A stretch of 64,000 bases of DNA from Salegentibacter salinarum (GTDB lineage: Bacteria > Bacteroidota > Bacteroidia > Flavobacteriales > Flavobacteriaceae), in contig NZ_FUZC01000002.1 of assembly GCF_900168115.1 (NCBI RefSeq), positions 310,001-374,000 on the forward strand. The letters run 5' to 3'. Both the position numbers and the translations under genes were made by a program. The notes under the pieces were generated by a model. It saw only the letters and a program-made list of their open reading frames with translations, did not search any database and had not been told where the DNA came from. Positions 13,863 to 28,589 of this stretch are shown one piece after another (within the stretch, counting starts at the first letter, position 1; every line of letters starts with the position of its first letter).

Positions 13863-13950
13863 GGAGGAATGGCAGAGTGGTCGATTGCGGCAGTCTTGAA
13901 AACTGTTGACTGTAACAGGTCCGGGGGTTCGAATCCCTCTTCCTCCGCCA
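13863..13950 (+). tRNA. tRNA-Ser (anticodon UGA)
   Basis: An 88-base serine tRNA including an encoded CCA. The acceptor arm pairs GGAGGAA with TTCCTCC; the anticodon stem GCAGT/ACTGT closes the loop CTTGAAA with anticodon TGA; a long variable arm (class II tRNA) follows, and the T arm has GGTTCGAATCC. Its 3' end is the likely attachment site of the mobile element, since an integrase gene starts 253 bp downstream. Confidence 0.97.
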
Positions 13951-14202: not shown

Positions 14203-15435
14203 ATGGAAAATCATTTTAGCTACACTTTATTTGTTCGACCTATTAGAACCAAACCAGAGTTTGGAGCAATTTATTTAAGAGTTAATTCTAATGGTCAGCG
14301 AGCTGCTTGCAGTTTACATAGAAGGATAAGAGTTATTGACTGGGATAATAATCTTTCCCAGTTGTTACCGGGTACTCCTGATTCTCAAGTTCTCAATAAC
14401 TATCTCACCAAGGTGAAGGCAGACATCCTTAGAATTCACCAGCGTTTTCTTTTTGGCGATAAACAATTTTCAGCCCAGGATATCATTGATTCATATTCGG
14501 GGAAAGAAAAATTAAAAACGATTAAAAATCAGAAAATGGTTCTGCAGATTTTTCAAGATCATAATGATAAGGTTGATCGGCTGGTTGGAAAGGATTTTGC
14601 TGCCGGAACGGCCGAAAGGTATAGAACGGCTAAAAAGCACGTTGAAGAATATATAAAGAAAGAATACAAAACTTCTGATATTCCCGTGAAAGATGTTAAT
14701 CATAAATTTATTACCGGGTTTGAATATTATTTAAAAACAGAAAGAAACTGTGCACATAATTCAGCGATTAAATACATAACAAATTTTAAAAAAATAATCC
14801 GCATTGCTTTTACCAATGAATGGATCAGTAGGGACCCATTTCAGAACTGGAAGGGTAAACTAAAGGTGGTGGACCGGGAGTTTTTAACTGAAGGGGAACT
14901 TCAGGCCTTGATATCCAAGGAAATTAAAAACGAACGCTTAAGTTTGGTTAAAGATATTTTTACCTTTAGCTGCTTCACCGGGCTTTGTTACGCAGATGTA
15001 AAGAAACTCTCAGAAAAAGAAGTGGTGGTCGGTTTTGATGGAAAACGTTGGATTAAGACTAACAGAACTAAAACTAAAACTCGAAGCAGTATTCCAATTC
15101 TTCCTACGGCAGAAGCAATATTGGAGAAATATTCCGAACATCCCGAAGTTAGCGAAAAGCAATTAATTCCGATTTTAAGCAATCAAAAAATGAATGCTTA
15201 TATCAAAGAAATTGCAGATATCTGTGGGATAAATAAAAACCTCACTTTCCATTTGGCCAGACATACTTTTGCTACTACAGTTACGCTCTCAAATGGAGTT
15301 CCTATCGAGAGCGTTAGTAAGATGCTGGGGCACAAAAATCTTCAGACTACCCAGCACTATGCAAAAATTCTAGATCGAAAAATAAGTGATGATATGGCAA
15401 TTTTAAGAGAACGATTGAGTGCTAAAAATTTTTAG
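14203..15435 (+). CDS. Tyrosine recombinase (integrase), CTnDOT-like
   Basis: A 410-residue site-specific recombinase. The N-terminal arm-binding domain (about residues 1-100) and SAM-like core-binding domain (about 105-205) precede the catalytic domain. Catalytic elements seen are the strand lysine region TNRTKTKTRSS, HLARHTF (His-x-x-Arg, near residue 350), LGHKNLQTTQHY with the second His, and the nucleophile Tyr in QHYAKI near residue 386. Box I reads FTGLCYADV, with Cys where most relatives have the first catalytic Arg; loss of this Arg is known from IntDOT-type enzymes. Its place next to tRNA-Ser suggests that it integrates the element there. Confidence 0.93.
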   Translation: MENHFSYTLFVRPIRTKPEFGAIYLRVNSNGQRAACSLHRRIRVIDWDNNLSQLLPGTPDSQVLNNYLTKVKADILRIHQRFLFGDKQFSAQDIIDSYSGKEKLKTIKNQKMVLQIFQDHNDKVDRLVGKDFAAGTAERYRTAKKHVEEYIKKEYKTSDIPVKDVNHKFITGFEYYLKTERNCAHNSAIKYITNFKKIIRIAFTNEWISRDPFQNWKGKLKVVDREFLTEGELQALISKEIKNERLSLVKDIFTFSCFTGLCYADVKKLSEKEVVVGFDGKRWIKTNRTKTKTRSSIPILPTAEAILEKYSEHPEVSEKQLIPILSNQKMNAYIKEIADICGINKNLTFHLARHTFATTVTLSNGVPIESVSKMLGHKNLQTTQHYAKILDRKISDDMAILRERLSAKNF

Positions 15436-16237: not shown

Positions 16238-17674
16238 TTACTTTCTTTCCGGGTCTATTATAGAAACTAAGTTTCCAAAATGAAATCTAAACTTTAACGA
16301 ATTTCGAGCAGAATGAATCTGAAATTCACCAAGACTAATTTTGCCATAACGGATAGTAACACTATTCTTGTCTTGAAAATTGTTAGAATACTCTAGTTCT
16401 TTAGGTGAGAAATACCAGTCTTTGAAAAACTTTTTCTCAACTAATTGTGAATTGATATTACTTCCTTCATTGTAAACTGACCATAATAAATAATCACATT
16501 CATTCAAATGTTTCAAATACTCCGATAATAAATCTGCTAGTATCACCCTATCCAGCACGATCTCCCTAAACTTAATACCATCCATATTACCTTCGTACCA
16601 CCCTTTTGCAGAGAAATAATAATCAAAGGTTTTAGGGGAGGGCTGGCCTACTTCTGGTGGGCAAACTTTTGCATTTTTATTTTTATTGGTTTTCAAGGAA
16701 AGAGATTTTCCGGCTTCAAGAATAAAATCGATACCACTTTTGCTATTACCCCCTCTTACTCTGGCAGCTGTTCCACCATACTTCACTGGCTTATAAGGAA
16801 AGAATTTTTCTTCATTTGTTTTATAGTGTTTTTTGAATAATCTGACCACTACTGAATTGGAATTATTCTTAAGTCTATCATTGTCAACTCCAGGATCCAA
16901 TAGAAAATTTTCACAAATCGCCAATTCTGCGGAATCGCCAATAACGGCATTATTTAAAATCTTTTCCACCATCAACAGAGATGGGAAATTCTCTCGATCT
17001 AGCCTAATTTTATAACCACTTCTGTTAGAATGCAGTTGAAACTCAATAATGGTTTTACCCTTGTACTTCGCAGTAGTCGTTTCATTCCAGGCAGCGACTG
17101 TATCCTTCGTAAAGGAGAAATCTTTTCTTTCAAAAGTCAGCTCTGGTAAATCCTCCCGGGGAATCATTTTAAAGGTCAGATTTTCGTTCCCATCTACGTA
17201 TATCCAGGCTGTTTCATCACTAATTAGGGCATAATCAATAAGAATAGGAAGAATTTCGTGCACTTTTGATAAACAGAATGCCTTAAAATTTTCTCTATCT
17301 ATTGTTTCGCCTGCGAGATCACCAAAAAAATGGTTAAATGTGATATCTCCAGCTTGCCCTACTACTTTTGGAGCAAACTTTTTATTCTTCTTCCCGAAAG
17401 TTCTAATGGAGAATGTTTGTCCATCTGACAGTAGAAAATTATGCGGGCATTTTTTTACAAATTCGGAAGTGTATTTCTTTGAATAAGTAAGAAATTCAAC
17501 CGGTGTAGCTTTTTTAAAAAGCTCTTTAATAATCCCCGATTCTTCTATTTTTAATAGAATATCCTCAGAAATTCTTTTAGGAGCTATTTGGTTTGATAAG
17601 TTGTATTCTTTGCAAATAGCATATTGAAATGTAATTCCGAAAGTTTCATTATTCATTGAAAAAAGTTTACTCAA
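16238..17674 (-). CDS. Type II-like restriction endonuclease, internally duplicated
   Basis: A 478-residue protein divergent from an adenine methyltransferase, hence most likely its cognate nuclease. Two homologous halves are evident (about 1-240 and 241-478). Paired segments include AICKEYNL/AICENFLL, NFLLSDGQTFSIRT/DFILEAGKSLSLKT, KKFAPKVVGQ/NAKVCPPEVGQ and IIEFQLHSNR/LGEFQIHSAR. The second half keeps a PD-(D/E)XK-like Asp followed by S-L-K, while the first has Asn and S-I-R, so only the C-terminal copy looks catalytic. This layout recalls pseudo-dimeric enzymes such as Sau3AI, but no specific family was recognised and the target sequence is unknown. Confidence 0.7.
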   Translation of the reverse strand: MSKLFSMNNETFGITFQYAICKEYNLSNQIAPKRISEDILLKIEESGIIKELFKKATPVEFLTYSKKYTSEFVKKCPHNFLLSDGQTFSIRTFGKKNKKFAPKVVGQAGDITFNHFFGDLAGETIDRENFKAFCLSKVHEILPILIDYALISDETAWIYVDGNENLTFKMIPREDLPELTFERKDFSFTKDTVAAWNETTTAKYKGKTIIEFQLHSNRSGYKIRLDRENFPSLLMVEKILNNAVIGDSAELAICENFLLDPGVDNDRLKNNSNSVVVRLFKKHYKTNEEKFFPYKPVKYGGTAARVRGGNSKSGIDFILEAGKSLSLKTNKNKNAKVCPPEVGQPSPKTFDYYFSAKGWYEGNMDGIKFREIVLDRVILADLLSEYLKHLNECDYLLWSVYNEGSNINSQLVEKKFFKDWYFSPKELEYSNNFQDKNSVTIRYGKISLGEFQIHSARNSLKFRFHFGNLVSIIDPERK

Positions 17675-17771
17675 ATGAGTTTCTAAATAAGATCAAGTAT
17701 ACGTGCATTATACATTTCTTACAAATAAATTAAAATGTCTTACAAAGATCCTTAGATAGTATTCTTATGCA

Positions 17772-17798
17772 TTGCCGTACTAATAAATTATATATTTG
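17772..17798 (+). promoter_or_regulatory. Promoter of the adenine methyltransferase gene
   Basis: TATATTTG at 17791-17798 is a perfect -7 box, with TTG at 17772-17774 sixteen bases upstream. The start site would be near 17805, leaving a leader of about 15 bases before the ATG at 17820. The divergent restriction gene begins at 17674, so this 145-bp gap must hold both promoters. Confidence 0.6.
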
Positions 17799-17819
17799 CA
17801 TTCTTCAAAATAATCTCTA

Positions 17820-18824
17820 ATGAACTACATCGGCTCTAAAAATAAATTAATTCCCTTTATCGTGGAAAATGTTCAGGATGTAGTGGGTACAGACCTTTCC
17901 GGTTTTACTTTCTGTGATTTATTTGCGGGTACTGGAATAGTGGGTCGAAATTTCAAACCTCTTGTAAAAAAAGTGATTAGTAATGATTTGGAGTATTATA
18001 GTTATGTACTTAACCGTAACTATATAGGTAATCATTTGTCAATATCTGGACACAGTGACTTGCTTAAAGAATTAAATGAAATTGAACCACTGGAAGGCTT
18101 TATTTATAAAAACTATTGTTCAGGTGATAAGGCAGAACGACAGTATTTTTCTGATATAAACGGAAAGAAAATTGATGCAATTAGGATGCAGATAGAAACC
18201 TGGAGGAATAAAGAGCAAATTGATGAATCAACATATTTTTTCTTATTAGCCAGTTTGCTAGAAAGTGCAGATAAAGTTGCTAATACTGCTTCTGTTTATG
18301 GGGCCTACCTGAAAAAATTAAAAAAGTCTGCCCAGAAAGAAATGGTTCTACTTCCGGCTAATTTCCAATTAAATGGCAACGAACACGAGGTTTATAATGA
18401 AGACAGTAATAATCTAATTTCTCATATTGAAGGAGATATACTCTATCTGGATCCCCCTTATAATGCGAGACAGTATGGAGCTAATTATCACTTATTAAAC
18501 ACCATTGCTCGGTATGATAATTTTATTCCCAAAGGGAAGACAGGTTTAAGAGAATATATTAAATCAGATTACTGCAGTAAAGTTAAAGTAGAAAAGGCTT
18601 TTGAAGATTTAATTAAAAAGTCCAATTTCAGGTATATTTTTTTAAGTTATAATAATGAGGGACTTATGCCTCAAAAAAATATTGAAAAAATTATGCAAAA
18701 ATATGGGCATTACCAACTTGCTTCAAAAAGTTACCAAAGATTCAAAGCCGACAAAACGGAAAACAGGAATCATAAATTTGATAAGACTACCGAATATCTT
18801 CATATTCTAGAAAAATTTTTTTAA
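17820..18824 (+). CDS. D12-class (alpha) N6-adenine DNA methyltransferase
   Basis: A 334-residue Dam-like enzyme that transfers a methyl group from AdoMet to adenine N6 in its target. It starts with MNYIGSKNKLIPFI (motif X of the D12 class), followed by the AdoMet motif I FCDLFAGTGIVG (about residues 33-44) and the catalytic motif IV LYLDPPYNARQYG (about 209-221). The block RQYGANYHLLNTIARYD is typical of the FokI/LlaI-type subgroup. It protects the host from the divergent nuclease. Its codon usage is AT-rich, like the rest of the island. Confidence 0.92.
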   Translation: MNYIGSKNKLIPFIVENVQDVVGTDLSGFTFCDLFAGTGIVGRNFKPLVKKVISNDLEYYSYVLNRNYIGNHLSISGHSDLLKELNEIEPLEGFIYKNYCSGDKAERQYFSDINGKKIDAIRMQIETWRNKEQIDESTYFFLLASLLESADKVANTASVYGAYLKKLKKSAQKEMVLLPANFQLNGNEHEVYNEDSNNLISHIEGDILYLDPPYNARQYGANYHLLNTIARYDNFIPKGKTGLREYIKSDYCSKVKVEKAFEDLIKKSNFRYIFLSYNNEGLMPQKNIEKIMQKYGHYQLASKSYQRFKADKTENRNHKFDKTTEYLHILEKFF

Positions 18825-19050: not shown

Positions 19051-21678
19051 ATGATGCATAATGAAACTGATGTTCAATGGCACATTATTTATAAACGTTT
19101 AGCAACTTTACTTTTCGATTTTGCGAATGCAAATTCACAGGGTGTGGGTTTTGAACTATTCAAAATACTTACTAAAAATGCTCGTTTTAAGGAGTTGAAT
19201 CCTTGGATATCTAATTTATATAGTGAAAGTTTTAAGTCCTTTGATCCCATTCAAGTTTTTGCAAGTTTTAATGGGAGTAGAATGAAAGATGAAACAAGAC
19301 TACAGAGAATAAATATTCTCTTTAGTATTCTTGAAGATAAAACCGACTTTCAAGAATTCAAAAATATTGATTTCAAAGGTTGTCCTGCTCCATTATCTAT
19401 TAAATTAATCTCCCCTAGAACACATAAAGATCAAAGAGAGATATGGGAGCTTTTTAGAGGAATATTTGAAAATTCTAGCAAAAGTCTAAGAGCCTCTACC
19501 TTTAATGATGTTAAGAATTGGTATGGGGTAGATGTGGTATCGTTAACACAGTTTTTATTTTGGATTGATTCAGATAGTTATTTACCACTTGATAAGAACA
19601 CTGTTCAATTTCTTAAGAAATTAAATAAAATAGATTCACTTCCCGATAACGTAGAAGAGTATAATGATTTAATTGTACAAGGGAAGCCAGGACTTTTTAG
19701 AGAGATAACAGAATTAGCTTATGAGCGTAAGCTCGAAAGAATTCATTTTTCGACTAACTCCAAAGCTTTTCAAGAATTCTTTATTGAAAATTTTAAATAT
19801 GAAAATTCTCAGGACTTACAATCATTTAAGTTTATTGGAATTCGACCCCTTAAAGAAATGCCAAGTAGTTTAAAGAAGGTTCTTTTGGAAGATCATTTAT
19901 ATATATTCTATAATCACTACCAGTTTTCAAATGAAGATAAAAAAGTGGTTTATGACAACAGGTATGAAAATATATATAATATCAAAGATGGCCCTATTAT
20001 TAATATTTCTGCCATGGTGGGTAAAAATGGTGTAGGCAAGAGCAGTCTTACAGAACTACTTTATATGTCAATTTATAACCTGTCCATTGCTAAAGGATTA
20101 ATAAGTAATCAATTTATTGAAGATTTACATATTGAGCTCTTTTTTAGAACAGATACTCTTTATAAACTAACTGTTAATGGAGAAAAGATTAGTATATACA
20201 GTTACAGTCATGTTGAGGGGGGCTTCCAGAATCCAGAAAAGAAAAACCTAGATGATTTTCACCTCAATCGCTTTTTTTATACCATCGCAGTCAATTATTC
20301 CCATTACGGGTTAAACTCCAAGAAGTATAAACTGGACTGGATTACACCCTTATCCCATAAGAATGATGGCTACCAATCCCCGGTGGTTATTAATCCTATG
20401 AGAACAGAAGGTAATATTAATGTGAATAGGGAGGAGTCCTTGTTGAATGCAAGAATGTTAGCTAACATTTTAGAACCTGTAGAGGAAGGGGCGGAGGAAA
20501 CTCTCAGAACAATCTACGGTCATAAAAAAGCAACGCACTTAATAATTTCTGAAAATGAAAAAAAAGGGGACCCTAAAAAAGGGGAGGAACTAAATTATAC
20601 AACTATTGAGCGTAGAACCAGGAATGAAATAATTAGGGAGTTATACTCGGTATTTCAATTGGAAACTCAGCATGAATTGAAATATAAAGTACTTGCCGAG
20701 AAATATTTTGTGAAAAAATTGTTTTCTGTTTGTCATACATATTCAAAATATCACACTCATCTTCCACAGAAGAAATCAGGTAATTTAACCTTAGAAGATG
20801 TACGAGGATTATTGAAAAAAATTAAGGCAGATCAAAGTCACATGGTATTTAAATTGAAGCAAACTATTAATTACCTGAAATATGGTCACATTGATGCTTT
20901 TGTAACGGGAGATAAGATTGCACTTGAAGATTTGTCAGCCGAGATCAATAGAATAAAATCTAAGGATCAGGATGTACAAACTATTTTATTGATACCGCCG
21001 CCAATATTCAATTGCAAAATTCTACTGGAGGATGGATCCGATTTCGCTAAAATAAGTTCCGGAGAGAGCCAGTTAATAAGTATAGCTAGTACAGTAGCTT
21101 ACCATTTGAATAATCTTGATTCAGTTCAGGATGAAACAGGATTTTATCGATATGGGAATATACTGGTAATGATGGATGAAGCAGAGTTATATTTCCATCC
21201 CGATCTTCAACGAAGGTTTATTCAGTTTCTTTTAGATTACCTTAGCAAAATCGACTTGTCCAGGATTGAAGGTATTAACTTTTGCTTTATAACGCACTCT
21301 CCATTCCTGCTCTCAGATATCATCAGAAGTAATGTTTTACCAATGGGTGATGAATCAAGCAAACTGGATTTAAAAACTTTTGGGGCGAATGTTTATGATA
21401 TACTCGCCAATAGTTTCTTTTTTAATGATGGATTCGTTGGAGAGCTGGCAAAACGTAGAATTAAGGAAGTGGTGGACTGGATAAATGGTAAGAAAAAATT
21501 ACCGGAATATGTAGATGCTGAATATTGCAAAAAAATAATTCAACTAATAGATGAACCAATAGTCCAGAAAAAACTGGCCGAAATGTATGATAAAAAAGTA
21601 AACGGTAACGTTAGGGAAAAGATTCTTCATCGGCAAATACAGGAATTACAGGCTGAACTTGCCTACATTAAAAAATAG
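19051..21678 (+). CDS. Septu-like ABC-type ATPase with N-terminal extension
   Basis: An 875-residue ATPase of the SMC/OLD-like ABC class: Walker A VGKNGVGKSS (about residues 322-333), signature KISSGESQLISIAS (near 668), Walker B ILVMMDEAELYF (near 705-715), the switch histidine in ITHSPFLLSD (near 747) and a helical C-terminal tail. Together with the downstream HNH gene it matches the ATPase-nuclease pair of Septu defence (PtuA/PtuB) and retron Ec78 effectors. The first 220 residues are an extra domain; LTQFLFWIDSDSYLPLDKNT recalls N-terminal regions of some McrB-like restriction NTPases. That domain could sense the infection signal, which is inference. Confidence 0.8.
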   Translation: MMHNETDVQWHIIYKRLATLLFDFANANSQGVGFELFKILTKNARFKELNPWISNLYSESFKSFDPIQVFASFNGSRMKDETRLQRINILFSILEDKTDFQEFKNIDFKGCPAPLSIKLISPRTHKDQREIWELFRGIFENSSKSLRASTFNDVKNWYGVDVVSLTQFLFWIDSDSYLPLDKNTVQFLKKLNKIDSLPDNVEEYNDLIVQGKPGLFREITELAYERKLERIHFSTNSKAFQEFFIENFKYENSQDLQSFKFIGIRPLKEMPSSLKKVLLEDHLYIFYNHYQFSNEDKKVVYDNRYENIYNIKDGPIINISAMVGKNGVGKSSLTELLYMSIYNLSIAKGLISNQFIEDLHIELFFRTDTLYKLTVNGEKISIYSYSHVEGGFQNPEKKNLDDFHLNRFFYTIAVNYSHYGLNSKKYKLDWITPLSHKNDGYQSPVVINPMRTEGNINVNREESLLNARMLANILEPVEEGAEETLRTIYGHKKATHLIISENEKKGDPKKGEELNYTTIERRTRNEIIRELYSVFQLETQHELKYKVLAEKYFVKKLFSVCHTYSKYHTHLPQKKSGNLTLEDVRGLLKKIKADQSHMVFKLKQTINYLKYGHIDAFVTGDKIALEDLSAEINRIKSKDQDVQTILLIPPPIFNCKILLEDGSDFAKISSGESQLISIASTVAYHLNNLDSVQDETGFYRYGNILVMMDEAELYFHPDLQRRFIQFLLDYLSKIDLSRIEGINFCFITHSPFLLSDIIRSNVLPMGDESSKLDLKTFGANVYDILANSFFFNDGFVGELAKRRIKEVVDWINGKKKLPEYVDAEYCKKIIQLIDEPIVQKKLAEMYDKKVNGNVREKILHRQIQELQAELAYIKK

Positions 21679-21684
21679 AAGCTA

Positions 21685-22599
21685 ATGTTATATGTAGATC
21701 CACATTCGTCTAAAATTCAGAAAGCAAAATATAATTTTTTAAAAAAAATAAAACCCAGGGTGATTTCTAAAATTGAAGATTTACCTGAGGGAGAATTAAA
21801 AGACTATTTCGACGATAATCTTACACCAAAACTTGATGATATACTTGTTGGGCTGCCTTCTGTCATATATCCTTTAAATGAAGAGTTAAAGAATGATATT
21901 GATGCGATCCCCGGACTTAAGGATGCTATTATTGACGTTCTAGATTATGATGATTTTATTATAAAACGGAAAGAAAAATATTGCGCTTACCACCTGGCAG
22001 AAGAAATAAATATAAGATCCTGTGTATACTGTAATCTTAATTATGCAGTGACTATAAGAGAAAAGGGGGAAAATCTAATACGCCCAGATTTTGATCATTT
22101 TTTAGATAAGGGTACTAACCCATTACTAAGACTTTCTTTTTTTAACCTGATTCCATCCTGCGGGACGTGTAACCAAAAATTAAAAAATACGATTCATTTT
22201 GAGTATGGGGTGCAGCAGCACCCTTATGAAGATGATCTGTTGGATGATTTTCACTTTTCCTATAGATATAATAACAGATCTGCTGATGGTCTGGAGATCA
22301 TCTTAAATCAGGAAGAGCCGGATGGTAAAATTGGAAAATCCTTCGAAGATCTAAAAATGATTAAAATTTATAACGGTTATACTCAAGAGCTTTACGATTT
22401 GTTAAAGATCAGGCAGACTTTCTCAGATAAATATCTGGCAAATCTTGGATCACAGGTACTGCATGGATTAAAAATTTCGGACGAGGAATTATACCGGCTG
22501 GCATTTGGAACATACCTCAGTAAAGAAGATTATATTAATAGGCCTTTTAGTAAATTTAAAAGAGATATTTTGGGTGAATTAGGAATTATTAAAGAGTGA
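21685..22599 (+). CDS. HNH endonuclease, PtuB-like
   Basis: A 304-residue protein starting 6 bp after the ATPase gene, thus the same operon. The nuclease core is a zinc-bound HNH fold: CVYC (Cys113, Cys116), PDFDHFLDKG (catalytic Asp-His near residue 139), the Asn-bearing LSFFNLIPSC and the second pair CGTC (Cys159, Cys162). Such proteins act as the DNA- or RNA-cutting effector of Septu-type systems, held in check by the ATPase. The N-terminal 100 residues and C-terminal helical part are also present in PtuB relatives of Bacteroidota. It is convergent with the Roco gene. Confidence 0.82.
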   Translation: MLYVDPHSSKIQKAKYNFLKKIKPRVISKIEDLPEGELKDYFDDNLTPKLDDILVGLPSVIYPLNEELKNDIDAIPGLKDAIIDVLDYDDFIIKRKEKYCAYHLAEEINIRSCVYCNLNYAVTIREKGENLIRPDFDHFLDKGTNPLLRLSFFNLIPSCGTCNQKLKNTIHFEYGVQQHPYEDDLLDDFHFSYRYNNRSADGLEIILNQEEPDGKIGKSFEDLKMIKIYNGYTQELYDLLKIRQTFSDKYLANLGSQVLHGLKISDEELYRLAFGTYLSKEDYINRPFSKFKRDILGELGIIKE

Positions 22600-22635: not shown

Positions 22636-25284
22636 TTAATTTTTAAGATTAATTAAAACGTGGTATAAAAATGTAGGGTTTACATATTTATTTAATTCAC
22701 TCTTGAAAATTTTTAACTCTTCTCCTATACCGTAATTTTCCGAAATATCTTCTATTTGCTTTAATTTCTCTGAATTTTCGAGTTGTTTAAAATACTTTTG
22801 ACTTAATGATTTAAAATCGTTTGACTCTGAATAGATACCTATAAATTTTTCTTTTAAACCGTTTCGATCATAATTATCAACTAATTTGTTAATGTGTGCC
22901 TCTATTACAGCCCTGTTAATAGAGGGTAAATTGAATCCTTCAAAAATTGTTTTGATCGTTCCAATATCATCTTCAATAACGATGTCCAGTTCTCCTGAAT
23001 TTTTCCCGGTAGCCGACAGTCCTCTTTGAGCCTGTTCCTTGGGAATGTAATTGTATTTCATAAGAGATGGTCGCCATAGATCCAGCAAATATAGATTTCT
23101 TTGGTTTTCATCTGCTTTCTGTATGGTAGAAATCCTTGTTTGCAATATGGAGGCTGCATCTATAAAAGATCTTAGTAATGAAAATGATGTAGGTTTTATT
23201 TTGAATCCTGCTAAAATACTTTTGATATTAATGGATTCAGTGCTTTTTTGGCAATCGATAGAATTTTTTCCTTTAAGAAGGAAACGCTTCAAGGTTTCCT
23301 TTTCAAACATATATGGATTTTCGCTTGTTGAACAATCTGTACAATTGCATCCAAAATATTTTTGAAAATCACTATCATTTAGGTTTAGAGAATTATGGAT
23401 TTCATCCAAGTTATGCTGAATGATATGAAATAATTCCATCCCTATATTTTCGGTAACATTGAAAGTCAATTTTTTATCAAGCGATTGTAGTTGTACTGTG
23501 GCATAAGCATGCTGATGTTTGAATACAACGCCGAATTTCCAGAAATTATCTTTATCAATATAACTGTTCATTCTGCAGATCAACCTTTCAATGATTCCAC
23601 TAGGAAGAAAAGAGTATCTAATTTCAATCTTCGAAGCCTCCTTAACTGAATAATCATCTTCGAATCCTTTTGTATTTGATTGAGCAGGAAGTAGAGCTGG
23701 AATAATAAATTCGTTCGCTGAACCGATAATTTTAAAGCAGATTTCGAACTTTTCCATAAAGGCAATAATATCTAAATGCTTATCTCTAGGATATATGCTT
23801 TCGTCCAGAAGCTCTTCAAGCTTTTCCATTTTAAACCTTCCGAAATTACGTTGTATATCTAAGGAATGAATTAATTCGTAAATAGCGTGGGTAAGCCATT
23901 CTGGATTAATTATAACAATGTCCCTCAAACGAATATCCGATGGGAAATGGATAATGTCGCCAAGATCATTCAAATATGAACTAATGAAATTAACCTCTTT
24001 ATTTTCTTTATAGTTACAGATCGATTTGAAATCACTGTATGTTATATAATTTGAATCTAATTTTTTTAATTTCCTACGTGTCTTATTCCAAGTTCCGGGT
24101 AGAAGGTCTCCTATATGAGGTAACCTTCGAACTTCTTCAGCAATTTTTTCTTTTAAATGATCAATTCCTTTTCTAGTTAAACAGGAAACCTGATGAAAGC
24201 TTACTATATTCTTAAATTTGTTTGAATAGGCCTTTTCATCTATTTGTTTCAAGCGTATATCTGCTTTATTCATCACCACAATTATGGGTGAATTCTCACC
24301 TAGTTTTTCAATAGTATTTAACCAGTAATCAAAATTCTCTGATTCAGTATCTGATCTTGGTTCCCAAACAAATAAGTAGACAGATCGCTGGGTTAAAAAA
24401 AATTGATGTGTAGAATAAAGGATTTCCTGGCCTCCGAAGTCCCAGAAATTTAATTTTACTTCTTTTTGAAAAAATAGATTGTGGTAGAAAAAGTCGAATG
24501 GTTGGTCTTGCACCCTAAGATCTAATTGCAGTTCTTCGTCAAAATTTAATTCACTTAGAGGATCATACTGATCTATTACCTGGCTGTAGTTTTCATCATG
24601 ATCATAATCGTTATCATATAAAAGTAAGTTTTCAAAATCTTCAAATCTATTATAATAAGGTTTTTTAGCAGGAAAAATTACTTGAAAACCTGAAGATTGA
24701 ATATCAATGCCATGAGTAGAGTTTTCTTTACCCAGTTTAAACTTAAATTTTTCATCATTTAATGTTTTAAGTAAAGTAGTTTTACCCACCTCTCCTTTAC
24801 CAACAATTATAATTTTAGTTTCGAATAATCGTGGTGTAATTAATTTCTTTTCTAAAGATTCTAGATAGAATGCGATGTATGAAAGATCTTCATGAAAGAT
24901 AATCTCGGGAGGTAGGTTTTCTGTGAAAAAATTGTTCTCAAATCGTATAATTGGATTAAAATCTAATTCCAGAAGTTCTTGAGGGACAAAATTCAGATTG
25001 TTGTTTGAAATGTCTATTTCTTTTAAACAATAAGTTTTTCCAGAGAGCAAATAGAAATCAATTAAATTATTATAGCTTAAATCTAATGTCCTAAGGTTAT
25101 ATAAATAGCAAATTGATTCTGGGAAATTGGTGAGGTTATTATAGCTTAAATCCAAGTCAAGAAGATAGGTCATGTCTGAAATATCCTGTGGTAATTTCGA
25201 TAATCCTAAACCACTCAAGTTTAAATATGTTGATTTAGTCCGTCTTGCTTCTTTAATTTTTTGGTTTGCTATTTTTAATGACAT
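22636..25284 (-). CDS. LRR-Roc-COR (Roco) GTPase with C-terminal nuclease-like domain
   Basis: An 882-residue protein with, in order: leucine-rich repeats (residues 19-128, e.g. LLDLDLSYNNLTNFPESI), a Roc GTPase domain (P-loop GKGEVGKTT 162-170, switch LNFWDFGGQE, VVMNKAD), a COR dimerisation domain (about 395-610), a cysteine cluster (CNCTDC), and a final 140 residues with GELDIVIED (Asp767) and IFEGFNL (Glu782) followed by HINKLVDNYDRNGL. The tail resembles PD-(D/E)XK nuclease domains with the pattern D-x(14)-E and IEALKL-like strands, though the usual Lys is Asn. I infer a sensor-GTPase-effector protein of the defence island. No published function is known to me for this arrangement. Confidence 0.8.
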   Translation of the reverse strand: MSLKIANQKIKEARRTKSTYLNLSGLGLSKLPQDISDMTYLLDLDLSYNNLTNFPESICYLYNLRTLDLSYNNLIDFYLLSGKTYCLKEIDISNNNLNFVPQELLELDFNPIIRFENNFFTENLPPEIIFHEDLSYIAFYLESLEKKLITPRLFETKIIIVGKGEVGKTTLLKTLNDEKFKFKLGKENSTHGIDIQSSGFQVIFPAKKPYYNRFEDFENLLLYDNDYDHDENYSQVIDQYDPLSELNFDEELQLDLRVQDQPFDFFYHNLFFQKEVKLNFWDFGGQEILYSTHQFFLTQRSVYLFVWEPRSDTESENFDYWLNTIEKLGENSPIIVVMNKADIRLKQIDEKAYSNKFKNIVSFHQVSCLTRKGIDHLKEKIAEEVRRLPHIGDLLPGTWNKTRRKLKKLDSNYITYSDFKSICNYKENKEVNFISSYLNDLGDIIHFPSDIRLRDIVIINPEWLTHAIYELIHSLDIQRNFGRFKMEKLEELLDESIYPRDKHLDIIAFMEKFEICFKIIGSANEFIIPALLPAQSNTKGFEDDYSVKEASKIEIRYSFLPSGIIERLICRMNSYIDKDNFWKFGVVFKHQHAYATVQLQSLDKKLTFNVTENIGMELFHIIQHNLDEIHNSLNLNDSDFQKYFGCNCTDCSTSENPYMFEKETLKRFLLKGKNSIDCQKSTESINIKSILAGFKIKPTSFSLLRSFIDAASILQTRISTIQKADENQRNLYLLDLWRPSLMKYNYIPKEQAQRGLSATGKNSGELDIVIEDDIGTIKTIFEGFNLPSINRAVIEAHINKLVDNYDRNGLKEKFIGIYSESNDFKSLSQKYFKQLENSEKLKQIEDISENYGIGEELKIFKSELNKYVNPTFLYHVLINLKN

Positions 25285-25587: not shown

Positions 25588-26874
25588 ATGGAAGATATCT
25601 TCAAAGTACATCATGAGGATGCAAGAAATATTGACAAGATAATCAAAAATAAAATTGTTGATGTTACAATAACCTCACCGCCTTATTTTGATTTAAAAGA
25701 TTATGGATCGGATAACCAGATTGGTTATGGGCAAGATTATGAAGCATATCTAGATGACCTCAAAATAGTCTTTCAAAAAGTTTTTAATGTAACTAAGGAG
25801 AGTGGTACTTTATGGGTTATAATTGATGCCTATCGACGCGAAGGTGAGGTTGTACCACTTCCCTTTGATTTCTCACATAAATTAAGAGAAGTTGGATGGA
25901 AGCTAAAAGAAGTTATTATCTGGGGGAAGGACCGTACAGTACCTTGGGCACATAAAGGTCAAATGAGAAATCTTTTTGAATATATTTTAGTTTTCTCTAA
26001 AAGTGATGACTTTAATTTTTATATAGATGAAGTTCGGGATTTTGAAACCTTAAAAAAATGGTGGGTAAAATATCCTGAGAGATATAATCCTAAGGGAAAA
26101 ACACCAGATGCAATTTGGAATTTTGATATTCCTACTCAGGGATCTTGGGGTAATGGATATATACGACATTTCTGCCCTCTACCTGAAGAGATGATAGAAC
26201 AAATGCTCAAGCTGACTACTAAAGAAGATGATGTAGTCTTAGATTGTTTTTCAGGTTCTGGATCAGTACTTTCTAAAGCTTTAAATATGAAACGTAGATA
26301 TATTGGTTTTGAATTAAATCAGGAGTATATAGATATGTTTCATAACTATATTAAGGAAACAAATGAGGAGAAAAGTTCAAAGTATTGTATAAGCAAAAAG
26401 AATAGAATTGGCCAGGCTAAATTTGAGAAATTAGTTAATGATTTGCGAGCGCTAAAGTATGCCAGGCTATTGTATAAAAAATTACAAACAGAAGGATTCA
26501 AGAATGTTTTAAAAATCTATGTTAAACGGACCTATACCCTATCTAATGGTGATAGAAAATATTTAAAAGTCAAATATTTATTCTTATTAGAGGATAGGTC
26601 AAGGAAAAATGAAATAGCTAAAAAGGTTGAAGATTGGACTAAAAAAGCTCCATTCTCTAAATTTGGAATAGCTCCAACATATTTATACACTCATAAAGTC
26701 ACCTCCTTTATTGAGATTCTAACAAACGAGAAAAAGGATCTTTACATATATGACTTTAAGGCAACACATAGATTTGTCAAAAAAATAAAAATTGAAGAGC
26801 TTAACAGAAGCGGTAAAAATAACGTTATTATAAGTTCCATTCAAGTGGATTTGAACGAAAGTGACTATGCGTAA
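25588..26874 (+). CDS. TSPPY-type DNA methyltransferase (N4-C or N6-A)
   Basis: A 428-residue beta-class methyltransferase: catalytic motif IV ITSPPYFDLKDYG comes first (about residues 30-42) and the AdoMet motif I VVLDCFSGSGSVL later (near 217-229), with motif X-like GYIRHFCPLPEEMIEQML between. SPPY is most frequent in N4-cytosine enzymes but occurs in adenine enzymes too. After the catalytic core (about residue 275) there is a basic 150-residue extension with no recognised fold. The next gene follows after 11 bp, so the two form an operon. No ordinary restriction gene is adjacent; the downstream DGQHR fusion may be the partner. Confidence 0.88.
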   Translation: MEDIFKVHHEDARNIDKIIKNKIVDVTITSPPYFDLKDYGSDNQIGYGQDYEAYLDDLKIVFQKVFNVTKESGTLWVIIDAYRREGEVVPLPFDFSHKLREVGWKLKEVIIWGKDRTVPWAHKGQMRNLFEYILVFSKSDDFNFYIDEVRDFETLKKWWVKYPERYNPKGKTPDAIWNFDIPTQGSWGNGYIRHFCPLPEEMIEQMLKLTTKEDDVVLDCFSGSGSVLSKALNMKRRYIGFELNQEYIDMFHNYIKETNEEKSSKYCISKKNRIGQAKFEKLVNDLRALKYARLLYKKLQTEGFKNVLKIYVKRTYTLSNGDRKYLKVKYLFLLEDRSRKNEIAKKVEDWTKKAPFSKFGIAPTYLYTHKVTSFIEILTNEKKDLYIYDFKATHRFVKKIKIEELNRSGKNNVIISSIQVDLNESDYA

Positions 26875-26885
26875 ATGATTAATAT

Positions 26886-28589
26886 ATGGCCAAAAAAACT
26901 AAAAGAAGGAAAAAAGTAAGTCCTGAAGAATTAGAAAAACGAAATCACCGAAAGGATGTCAGAGCAGTATTTCGAAATGCTGGCTTCACAAAAGTTTTAT
27001 CTGTAAGTGATAAGGAATTTACATTTAATGGTCATACTTCAGATTTTGATGATGTTTTCGTCTATCAAAACGTAATACTTTTCTTAGAATACACTACAAC
27101 CAAATCCTCTAAAATAAGGGATCATTTGAAGCCTAAAAAATTGATTTATGATGAGATATTAAGTAACTCGGCATCTTTTATTGAATTTTTTGAAAACAAA
27201 TTTTCCAAATTTAAAGAGACAAGAGATCAATATTATGATCCAATACAATGTCAGATCAGGATTCTATATTGCTCCAAAAATTCAGTGAGCCCAAAATATA
27301 AAGAACAAATTAGTACTATATCCTATTTTGACTATCCATTAGTAAAATATTTCAAAAATGTAGCTGAAGCAGTTAAGAAATCTGCAAGGTTCGAAATCTT
27401 TAGTTTTTTAGGATTAAGTAATAATGAGGTTGGAAAAGATTCTATCAATTCCAGTAATGGGAGTGAAGATTATCAGGGATCAATTTTACCGCATTCATAT
27501 AGCAATTTTGACTATGGTTACAAAGTTATATCATTTTATATAGATCCCTTGTCTCTTTTACATCGTTCTTATGTATTGAGAAGAGATGGATGGAAGGATC
27601 AAGCAGGAGTTTATCAAAGAATGATATCTAAGGGTAAAATTAATAATATTAGAAAATATTTGAATTCAAAGGAGCGAGTCTTTATTAATAATATTATAGT
27701 AACGCTACCCAGCGATACAAAGCTATTAAATAAGAATGGAAATACATTAAATCCGAATACCTTAACCAAAACGGAACCCGTAACAATACAAATACCTAAA
27801 CGGTATAACGTTATTGGCTTAATTGATGGTCAGCATCGAGTATTTTCCTATCATGAGGGTGGTTTGTATGATGAAAAAATTGGAAAATTAAGGGAAAAGC
27901 AGAATTTATTAGTAACGGGTATCATTTATCCAGATACTATTTTAGATCAGGATAAAACGAAATTTGAAGCAAATCTTTTTTTAGAGATTAATTCCAATCA
28001 ATCAAACGCAAAATCAGATATTAAGCAAGCTATTGGTTTAATTTTAAAACCATTTTCTTCAGAGTCTATTGCCAAGGCTTTAATTAATAAATTAAATAAT
28101 AATGGACCTTTAGAAGATAATTTTGAAAGACACTTTTATGATAAGAAAAAAATAAAAACTACCTCTATAGTTAGCTATGGTTTAAAACCACTAATTAAAT
28201 TAGGAGGTGATGACAGTCTTTACAAAATTTGGAGCCATCCACAAAAACTTGAAATTAAAGATGAGAGTGATGAGAAGCTACTTGAAGCATATTTAGAATT
28301 TTGTACTAGCCAAGTTAACGATTTCATTGCTGCAGCTAAAGATAATCTTAGTTCAAATAAATGGACGCGTAGCAAAGAAGAAAAGAATAAAGTTCTTACC
28401 ACTACGGCAATTAATGGTTTTATAATTTGTTTACGACAAATAATTGAGAATAATCATAAAACTGACTACGCCTACTATAAAAATAAATTAAAGCATCTGA
28501 ATTCATTTGATTTTTCTGAATATAAATCTAGTCAGTACGGCAGGATGGGTAGAGATATTTATAACAAGTACTTTACAAACAATCGATAA
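26886..28589 (+). CDS. DGQHR-domain protein with nuclease-like N-terminus
   Basis: A 567-residue protein. The central GLIDGQHRVF (about residues 311-320) with following strand-helix LEINSNQSNAKSDIKQ defines the DGQHR family, known from DndB, the regulator of DNA phosphorothioation, and from uncharacterised island proteins. The N-terminal 110 residues look like a PD-(D/E)XK-type fold: Asp53-x-Asp55-Asp56 then ILFLEYTTTK (Glu68), with Thr in place of the usual Lys. DndB family knowledge suggests ATP-linked DNA interaction. It is co-transcribed with the upstream methyltransferase. dndACDE genes are absent, so it is not a Dnd system. Its catalytic activity is inference. Confidence 0.72.
   Translation: MAKKTKRRKKVSPEELEKRNHRKDVRAVFRNAGFTKVLSVSDKEFTFNGHTSDFDDVFVYQNVILFLEYTTTKSSKIRDHLKPKKLIYDEILSNSASFIEFFENKFSKFKETRDQYYDPIQCQIRILYCSKNSVSPKYKEQISTISYFDYPLVKYFKNVAEAVKKSARFEIFSFLGLSNNEVGKDSINSSNGSEDYQGSILPHSYSNFDYGYKVISFYIDPLSLLHRSYVLRRDGWKDQAGVYQRMISKGKINNIRKYLNSKERVFINNIIVTLPSDTKLLNKNGNTLNPNTLTKTEPVTIQIPKRYNVIGLIDGQHRVFSYHEGGLYDEKIGKLREKQNLLVTGIIYPDTILDQDKTKFEANLFLEINSNQSNAKSDIKQAIGLILKPFSSESIAKALINKLNNNGPLEDNFERHFYDKKKIKTTSIVSYGLKPLIKLGGDDSLYKIWSHPQKLEIKDESDEKLLEAYLEFCTSQVNDFIAAAKDNLSSNKWTRSKEEKNKVLTTTAINGFIICLRQIIENNHKTDYAYYKNKLKHLNSFDFSEYKSSQYGRMGRDIYNKYFTNNR

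Follow-up and report, generated by a model that had tools for sequence, protein, structure and literature searches.

DndI, SspE, and GmrSD are single polypeptides in which a DUF262 ParB-type nucleoside triphosphatase (NTPase) with a DGQ(H/Q)R motif is joined to a DUF1524 HNH nuclease. DndI acts alongside a modification system and leaves modified self DNA intact (PMC11662687). The locus described here is a two-gene module in 64,000 nucleotides of Salegentibacter salinarum DNA (positions 310,001 to 374,000 of contig NZ_FUZC01000002.1), and this whole stretch is called the window. The module consists of a methyltransferase gene, P0001 (428 amino acids; 25588-26874), and a gene for a DGQHR protein, P0002 (567 amino acids; 26886-28589), both on the plus strand and 11 bp apart, which reproduces the open reading frames (ORFs), sizes, and spacing given in a preliminary description of this DNA. 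P0002 has a PD-(D/E)XK-derived N-terminal domain (N-domain), a DGQHR domain, and a helical C-terminal part. Like DndI, SspE, and GmrSD, it combines a ParB/Srx-type NTPase domain and a nuclease-like domain in one polypeptide. Unlike them, its nuclease part is N-terminal and derived from the PD-(D/E)XK fold, its NTPase part is of the TIGR03187 type, and its partner is one methyltransferase. P0002 shares the DGQHR domain with DndB and DpdB of the phosphorothioate and 7-deazaguanine systems, but it has the extra nuclease-like domain and scores below their cut-offs, and no dndC was found in its genome. A methyltransferase gene abutting one nuclease-like gene is also the arrangement of two-gene type II restriction-modification (R-M) systems such as BglII and BstYI, and the short methyltransferases that accompany some relatives of P0002 resemble that of a BglII-type pair on a Spirosoma plasmid (L004). 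In contrast to type II systems, an NTPase-type domain is part of the candidate restriction protein, the active site departs from the canonical one, and the partner types are exchanged. The R-M neighbourhoods of the MORC and paraMORC GHKL ATPases likewise hold a methyltransferase and an ATPase (PMC2292703), but no GHKL gene lies beside the window pair, and its DGQHR protein carries a nuclease-like domain of its own.

The pair looks like a little-known type of R-M system directed at foreign DNA, a small module that has travelled widely. By analogy with described systems, and with moderate confidence, we read it as a two-gene R-M-like system in which a nuclease gated by nucleoside triphosphate (NTP) would be held off by the methylation of its partner. 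The methyltransferase would mark the cell's own DNA. The DGQHR protein would be the restriction half, with a nuclease domain and a ParB/Srx-type nucleotide-binding domain. The latter would make the binding or hydrolysis of nucleotide depend on whether the target is methylated; the nuclease would be kept off self DNA, and unmethylated DNA would be nicked or cut. Methylation-gated restriction is proposed because of the analogy with DndI, whose ATPase (DGQQR motif) is described as being stimulated by modified self DNA, from which the protein then dissociates, sparing it; DndI is a solved precedent in which a nuclease with an attached DGQQR NTPase leaves modified DNA alone (PMC11662687). Nucleotide use, methylation sensing, cleavage, and defence are what we infer for the pair. 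The preliminary description had also proposed a modification-based defence system, and this is supported in part: the fold and the adjacency of the genes agree with it, while the lysine of the active site is absent and, contrary to what it states, an ordinary restriction gene is present.

The association of the two genes is conserved. Loci were fetched with an alignment of five DGQHR proteins alone, without use of the methyltransferase, and this gave 70 genome loci and 5 viral contigs; a single-protein query of the genome contigs had given 31 pattern matches and no relatives. A methyltransferase ORF abuts the DGQHR gene at 65 of the 70 genome loci, including one with a split methyltransferase (L020) and one with a split DGQHR gene (L055), and on all five viral contigs. 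Two of the latter seem to duplicate genome loci (L081 = L015, L082 = L028). Such a proportion among loci retrieved with the DGQHR protein only shows that the pairing is more than chance. The linkage of a methyltransferase to a candidate restriction gene, one feature of R-M systems, is present, and homologues of the two genes, whose adjacency the preliminary description had proposed to survey, are nearly always neighbours. In the 65 loci the methyltransferase is upstream on the same strand in 61, downstream on the same strand in two, and convergent in two, with gaps from -233 (an effect of the ORF start) to 50 bp. Among the five exceptions, L076 and L077 start within the DGQHR gene, at the end of a contig, and two genes separate the pair in L035. 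In L062 a divergent helix-turn-helix (HTH)-methyltransferase is followed by a small HTH gene and then the DGQHR gene, an order that parallels control-protein R-M operons.

P0001 is a predicted beta-class DNA methyltransferase. Residues 24-251 match the Pfam family N6_N4_Mtase (E 1.6e-43), and the profile match together with the motifs TSPPY and DCFSGSG places the protein among the N6_N4 DNA methyltransferases. The catalytic TSPPY (residues 29-33; 25672-25686) and DCFSGSG (residues 219-225; 26242-26262) are both intact, and we take the latter to be the S-adenosylmethionine-binding motif. By motif convention TSPPY presumably points to N4-cytosine as the probable target. Sequence relatives in PDB include 2zie (E 2.3e-19) and MboIIA (E 5.4e-15). 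Alignments define a C-terminal extension (about residues 266-428; 26383-26871, plus strand) that is common to the long partner methyltransferases and absent from the short ones; Pfam gives no match above cut-off for the 177 residues beyond the N6_N4_Mtase match. The 4.3-Mb genome contains one match to N6_N4_Mtase, P0001, and one to DGQHR (TIGR03187), P0002.

The N-domain of P0002 (residues 12-190; 26919-27455, plus strand), defined from AlphaFold2, Foldseek, and hhalign, has a predicted PD-(D/E)XK-like fold with conserved acidic residues. AlphaFold2 modelled the domain alone with a predicted local distance difference test score (pLDDT) of 95.2 and a predicted template modeling score (pTM) of 0.91, and full-length P0002 with values of 90.8 and 0.86. 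In both models the elements follow the order alpha-beta-beta-beta-alpha-beta of the PD-(D/E)XK core. The best Foldseek match in PDB is the R2 endonuclease (E 8.6e-4); others are the small subunit of R.BspD6I (E 4e-3, probability 0.99), Bax1, Cdn1, Can2, Card1, MspJI, BstEII, and cap-snatching endonucleases. Most of the 50 PDB matches listed are proteins that we take to be PD-(D/E)XK nucleases; 6bzf and 8xgc were not counted as such. A nuclease-like fold was what the preliminary description had made its reading depend on, and the three methods agree with it. In addition, hhalign aligned a profile of eight N-domains from longer cousins of P0002 with that of the P0002 family (probability 97.7, E 2.5e-12), pairing Asp55 with the invariant Asp of the cousins, Glu68 with their Glu, and Thr70 with the Lys of their ECK.

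Several residues of this domain are conserved among 70 P0002-family sequences. Asp55, a candidate metal-binding residue in Asp55-Asp56 (27048-27053), and Glu68, in Glu68-Tyr69-Thr70 at the ExK position (27087-27095), are found in 70/70 and correspond to the two acidic metal-binding residues of PD-(D/E)XK enzymes. Asn62 is likewise invariant (70/70). The helix after the ExT strand, which spans residues 74-93 in the AlphaFold2 model, carries His80-x3-Lys84 (27123-27137; His80 in 70/70, Lys84 in 69/70). Asp53, Asp55, Asp56, Glu68, and Thr70 have the positions first assigned to them. Thr70 (69/70) stands in place of lysine, and Lys84, with His80, may substitute for it. Because the ExK lysine is absent, the domain is classed as PD-(D/E)XK-derived and not as a canonical member. 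Outside the fusion the domain was not found in 395 Bacteroidota genomes: of six matches at E <= 0.01, two are strong and both are fusions, and four are weak, contain internal stops, and are taken as chance.

The DGQHR domain of P0002 has its core at about residues 205-375 (27498-28010, plus strand; from TIGR03187 and BFVD). TIGR03187 (NCBIfam DGQHR) matches residues 221-519 with 80.9 bits against a cut-off of 58.85, and the motif lies at D314-R318 (27825-27839; 70/70 sequences), within the region of about 311-320 originally proposed for it. Gln244-Arg245, Phe365, and Asn369 are invariant, so that the QR and FxxxN motifs are also intact in 70/70. QR, DGQHR, and FxxxN are motifs listed by Jablonska et al., where the DGQQR of GmrS is related to NTP binding (PMC4619093). 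A BFVD search with the full P0002 model gave 10 matches at E <= 0.001, and among the named ones are GmrSD N-terminal proteins (4.4e-4 to 2e-2) and others described as ParB-like (about 1.3e-2). P0002 is expected to use nucleotides, given these intact motifs, the GmrSD-like and ParB-like matches, and a DndB-like protein that is reported to bind ATP and GTP (PMC12704722).

P0002 does not belong to the named families that contain such domains. It scores 19.5 bits against a cut-off of 29.1 for PF14072 and 41.5 against 450 for TIGR04172 (DndB), and 32.6 against 300 for NF041060 (DpdB). Identity with GmrSD, DndI, or SspE was rejected, there being no Pfam match to DUF262 or DUF1524 (HNH) at E <= 0.1. 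PADLOC-DB 2023 contains no model for P0002; only its DpdB model matches, and weakly (33.4 bits, E 5.1e-9). No dndC gene was found in the whole genome, which upholds for dndC the preliminary statement that dnd genes are missing; the remaining dnd genes were not searched for.

Methyltransferase partners have been exchanged during the evolution of the DGQHR proteins. The set comprises 63 pairs, from 62 of the 75 loci and the window; 13 loci were dropped as duplicate, cut, broken, non-adjacent, or with an odd ORF (L018, L020, L025, L029, L035, L049, L055, L062, L073, L076, L077, L081, and L082). The methyltransferases were sorted manually into four types, with the tree and the motif as guides. The long TSPPY type with the C-terminal extension, as in the window, is found in 37/63 pairs, and a short TSPPY type, the kind found with the BglII-type restriction endonuclease (REase) in L004, in 16/63; the others are short SPPY (6/63) and DPPY (4/63). 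Parsimony requires at least 12 changes of type on the DGQHR tree, compared with a mean of 23.5 and a lowest value of 18 in 1000 shuffles. Because these 12 changes are below all 1000 shuffles, the partners co-vary yet have repeatedly been replaced. Distances in the two trees are correlated (r 0.39), and none of 2000 permutations was as high. Node support for the switches is mixed, with some strong (L054 with L048/L050, support 1.0) and some weak.

The reverse search with the long-type methyltransferase at E <= 1e-60 gave matches in 5/395 Bacteroidota genomes and none on plasmids. Two of the five genomes have a DGQHR gene, two have a GHKL ATPase and Methyltransf_35 instead, and in the fifth the neighbours include a PIN gene, with no other neighbour identified. 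Among viral contigs 39 loci were found; two cover the C-terminal extension and lie on contigs already known to hold a DGQHR gene, and the remaining 37 match the catalytic part only.

Several observations weigh against the reading of the pair as an R-M system. The Foldseek matches of the N-domain are individually weak, with a single PDB match at E <= 0.001 and TM-scores to the query of at most 0.47 among the 50 listed. For the full P0002 model the PDB search gave nothing at E <= 0.001, and none of its 50 listed matches is named as a ParB-type protein. Direct Pfam and PDB sequence searches with the P0002-family N-domain gave weak, unrelated matches only, and the sequence link to PD-(D/E)XK families came by way of the longer cousins. 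At the position of the canonical ExK lysine the family has Thr in 69/70 sequences, Tyr in 1/70, and Lys in 0/70, and even the Glu is replaced in 3/8 of the cousins. Repeated exchange of methyltransferase types is unusual for two enzymes that read one site, and relatives of the methyltransferase occur without a DGQHR gene in three of the five genomes above. On the Spirosoma plasmid (L004, 6413-8510) a BglII/BstYI-type REase (BglII-type, Pfam E 2.5e-18) sits between the methyltransferase and the DGQHR gene, whose N-domain part lies at the end of the record, so the DGQHR protein is not the sole nuclease there. The methyltransferase frame of L020 is broken while its DGQHR gene is intact. Barring a sequencing error, this is unexpected of a nuclease that would kill the cell in the absence of methylation. 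Finally, L029 has no abutting methyltransferase; one lies 4.5 kb away on the opposite strand.

The missing lysine, the separate REase of L004, and the broken frame of L020 would be easier to explain under the main rival, a helper role like that of DndB or DpdB, which we consider rather unlikely. The DGQHR protein would then be an NTPase that helps or regulates the methyltransferase and controls or licenses methylation, its N-domain would be an inactive nuclease that serves to bind DNA, and restriction would not take place. Published accounts present DndB as an ATP-dependent negative regulator of phosphorothioation, with a nuclease role left open, and DpdB as an ATPase for base insertion (PMC10853773, PMC12839542). 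However, a dead domain need not keep Asp55, Asn62, Glu68, and His80 in 70/70 sequences, and the full D...ECK is retained in 3/8 cousins. P0002 is also below the cut-offs of both helper families, and the partnering of unrelated methyltransferase types with one protein family is hard to reconcile with a dedicated helper.

The exchange of partners is easier to understand if restriction takes its specificity from the methyltransferase, or if the protein does not cut at specific sites. One form of the R-M reading, which we put forward only tentatively, is that the PD-(D/E)XK-DGQHR protein would be a general NTP-gated effector that has no specificity of its own and borrows that of the adjacent modification enzyme. 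The pairs would then form a class of restriction systems with an exchangeable modification half. The partners would include long and short beta-class, DPPY, and HTH-methyltransferases, D12 enzymes with the longer cousins, and perhaps, on two alphaproteobacterial plasmids, a module of a radical-SAM gene and a short DGQHR gene.

The longer cousins, DGQHR proteins of 755-786 amino acids found as distant matches, connect the N-domain with known nuclease families. The P0002-family profile spans the N-domain in three of four (L098, L101, and L102) and part of it in L097. Their ExK site is ECK in three of the eight N-domains (L102, L119, and L120), ECR in one, and ECT in one, and the Glu is replaced in three. 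At E values up to 0.05 Pfam matches are to NERD (2/8), Card1_endonuc (4/8), and Hjc (4/8), and one N-domain exceeds the NERD gathering score (24.3 against 22.1 bits; 22.0 as the full protein). Cousin genes of 755-780 amino acids are at L097 5236-7518, L098 4831-7173, L101 5641-7914, L102 5256-7598, L119 3953-6220, and L120 3908-6187. A D12-class methyltransferase (E <= 3.4e-41) abuts the cousin in all four Bacteroidota loci read (L097, L098, L101, and L102). On two viral contigs a D12-like ORF, recognised by eye from its motifs, precedes the cousin and is intact in L120 and partial in L119. L099 and L100 encode DGQHR proteins without the N-domain, and none of their neighbours matches the P0001-type profile; the D12 profile was not run there.

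The C-terminal region of the longer cousins is possibly HEPN-like. HEPN domains are common in RNase effectors. In L097 this region matches Pfam HEPN_Swt1 just below the cut-off (E 1.3e-5; 25.8 against 27.5 bits), and an RN...H motif is common to the four aligned cousins. Such a tail would suit abortive infection, an improbable alternative in which methylation, or phage interference with it, would control the NTPase, and the infected cell would be killed by general DNA damage or nucleotide depletion and not by site-specific cutting. A role as nucleotide-degrading effectors has been suggested for ParB-fold proteins (PMC10853773), and the exchange of partners points to weak dependence on the target site. 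P0002, however, has no HEPN-like tail, and the neighbour families include no recurrent partner of toxin-antitoxin type.

Two side observations concern these cousins. A Phyllobacterium plasmid (L126, 4941-8004) encodes a stand-alone protein that is 54% identical to their C-terminal region, beside a KAP NTPase gene. On two other plasmids, pNL1 (L124, 3854-10139) and one of Rhizobium AB2/73 (L125, 182-9233), a cousin is found close to a short DGQHR gene, to one annotated as radical SAM (below the Pfam cut-off), and to an ATP-binding gene (HATPase_c_3 in L124); this cluster is possibly a further DNA modification system.

The methyltransferase-DGQHR pair has a wide but sparse distribution. Record titles place it in, among others, Bacteroidota, Alpha-, Beta-, and Gammaproteobacteria, Planctomycetes, Nitrospirae, Chloroflexi, Firmicutes, and archaea, in many cases as metagenome bins, and further copies are carried by two rhizobial plasmids and by Chantilly, a temperate Akkermansia phage. 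The P0002-type fusion is found in 2/395 Bacteroidota genomes, and P0002 is absent from all 14 other genomes of the same genus that were searched. In Chantilly the two genes are convergent and lie between the integrase and the repressor. This location, together with the copies on viral contigs and plasmids, would be consistent with a selfish epigenetic cassette of mobile elements that, for instance, protects a prophage from host restriction or regulates it, and uses the DGQHR protein in gene control. We regard this as very improbable: the pair is also on large chromosomal contigs of many phyla, a nuclease-derived domain is unnecessary for such a role, and the genes stay adjacent even when inverted (L005, L054, and L059).

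If the pair is an R-M system, the DGQHR domain, so far placed with modification accessories such as DndB and DpdB, would also be the core of a compact two-gene restriction system present across many phyla of bacteria, in some archaeal bins, and in temperate phages. Ordinary DNA methylation would be connected with the kind of NTP-gated discrimination that phosphorothioate systems show, and proteins whose sole annotation is "DGQHR domain-containing protein" would gain a function. Because the methyltransferases change while their partner stays constant, the seat of restriction specificity would be directly testable. The titles, abstract beginnings, and passages of the nearest open-access papers contain no description of a methyltransferase-DGQHR pair. 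Its novelty is provisional because subscription papers, preprint servers, REBASE, and DefenseFinder lie outside this search.

In the window the pair lies in a stretch of low guanine-plus-cytosine (GC) content. In 2-kb windows GC is 0.29-0.34 from about 14 to 32 kb and mostly 0.36-0.43 elsewhere, with a single dip to 0.344 at 40-42 kb. A tRNA-Ser gene (13863-13950, plus strand) at the left edge is the inferred boundary of an island, and a tyrosine integrase gene adjoins it (14203-15435, plus strand; Phage_integrase, E 1.2e-15). Among the 20 of 28 repeat families listed there is no copy of the tRNA resembling an attachment site. The island also contains an ordinary type II R-M pair with its own methyltransferase, about 7 kb from P0001 and P0002: REase_II (478 amino acids; 16238-17674, minus strand; E 4.5e-24) and a divergent D12-class MTase_II (334 amino acids; 17820-18824, plus strand; E 7.4e-136). 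This pair (16238-18824) occupies the same island and contradicts the preliminary description, which had reported no ordinary restriction gene. Between the two systems an AAA ATPase (875 amino acids) and a 304-amino-acid protein (19051-22599) match the PADLOC candidate PDC-M62A/B, an ATPase-HNH pair.

The link of the pair to defence loci, which the preliminary description had assumed, is circumstantial. The type II pair and the candidate PDC-M62AB in the island and the relatives on mobile elements favour it, but no defence gene recurs beside the pair, either in the neighbour families or in a PADLOC profile scan of flanking proteins. The scan covered 132 of 210 candidate proteins (120-999 amino acids) from the 47 loci, out of 72, whose GC content is below 50%. 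At E <= 1e-10 these proteins matched 165 PADLOC families, and the 25 listed have at most two member proteins each. No enrichment in defence islands is claimed from these counts, which are per family and come without a random-gene control. The commonest Pfam family among the 132 proteins is Phage_integrase (five proteins). There is no recurrent third gene, and the largest neighbour family is found at five loci.

GHKL ATPase genes are present at several of the loci. A larger variant of the methyltransferase-DGQHR cluster (L026 3067-9495, L035 3393-9425, and L044 3008-9493) adds a GHKL ATPase and unknown proteins of 300 and 248 amino acids, and a related GHKL gene is present in 5/75 DGQHR loci. 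In L076 (1313-3644) a GHKL ATPase and Methyltransf_35 are beside the DGQHR gene. L175 (4854-8429) and L176 (2683-6264) contain a cluster of GHKL ATPase, Methyltransf_35, and long-type methyltransferase. A 796-amino-acid neighbour in L174 was considered as a GHKL ATPase, is unsupported by Pfam, and was not counted.

Two further observations concern the genes near the pair in the window. The proteins of 19051-22599 also have weaker PADLOC matches to PtuA and PtuB of Septu. Next to them, still in the island, is a gene on the minus strand (22636-25284) for a protein of 882 amino acids that Pfam identifies as an LRR-Roc-COR GTPase, a domain set that resembles the eukaryotic LRRK/ROCO proteins.

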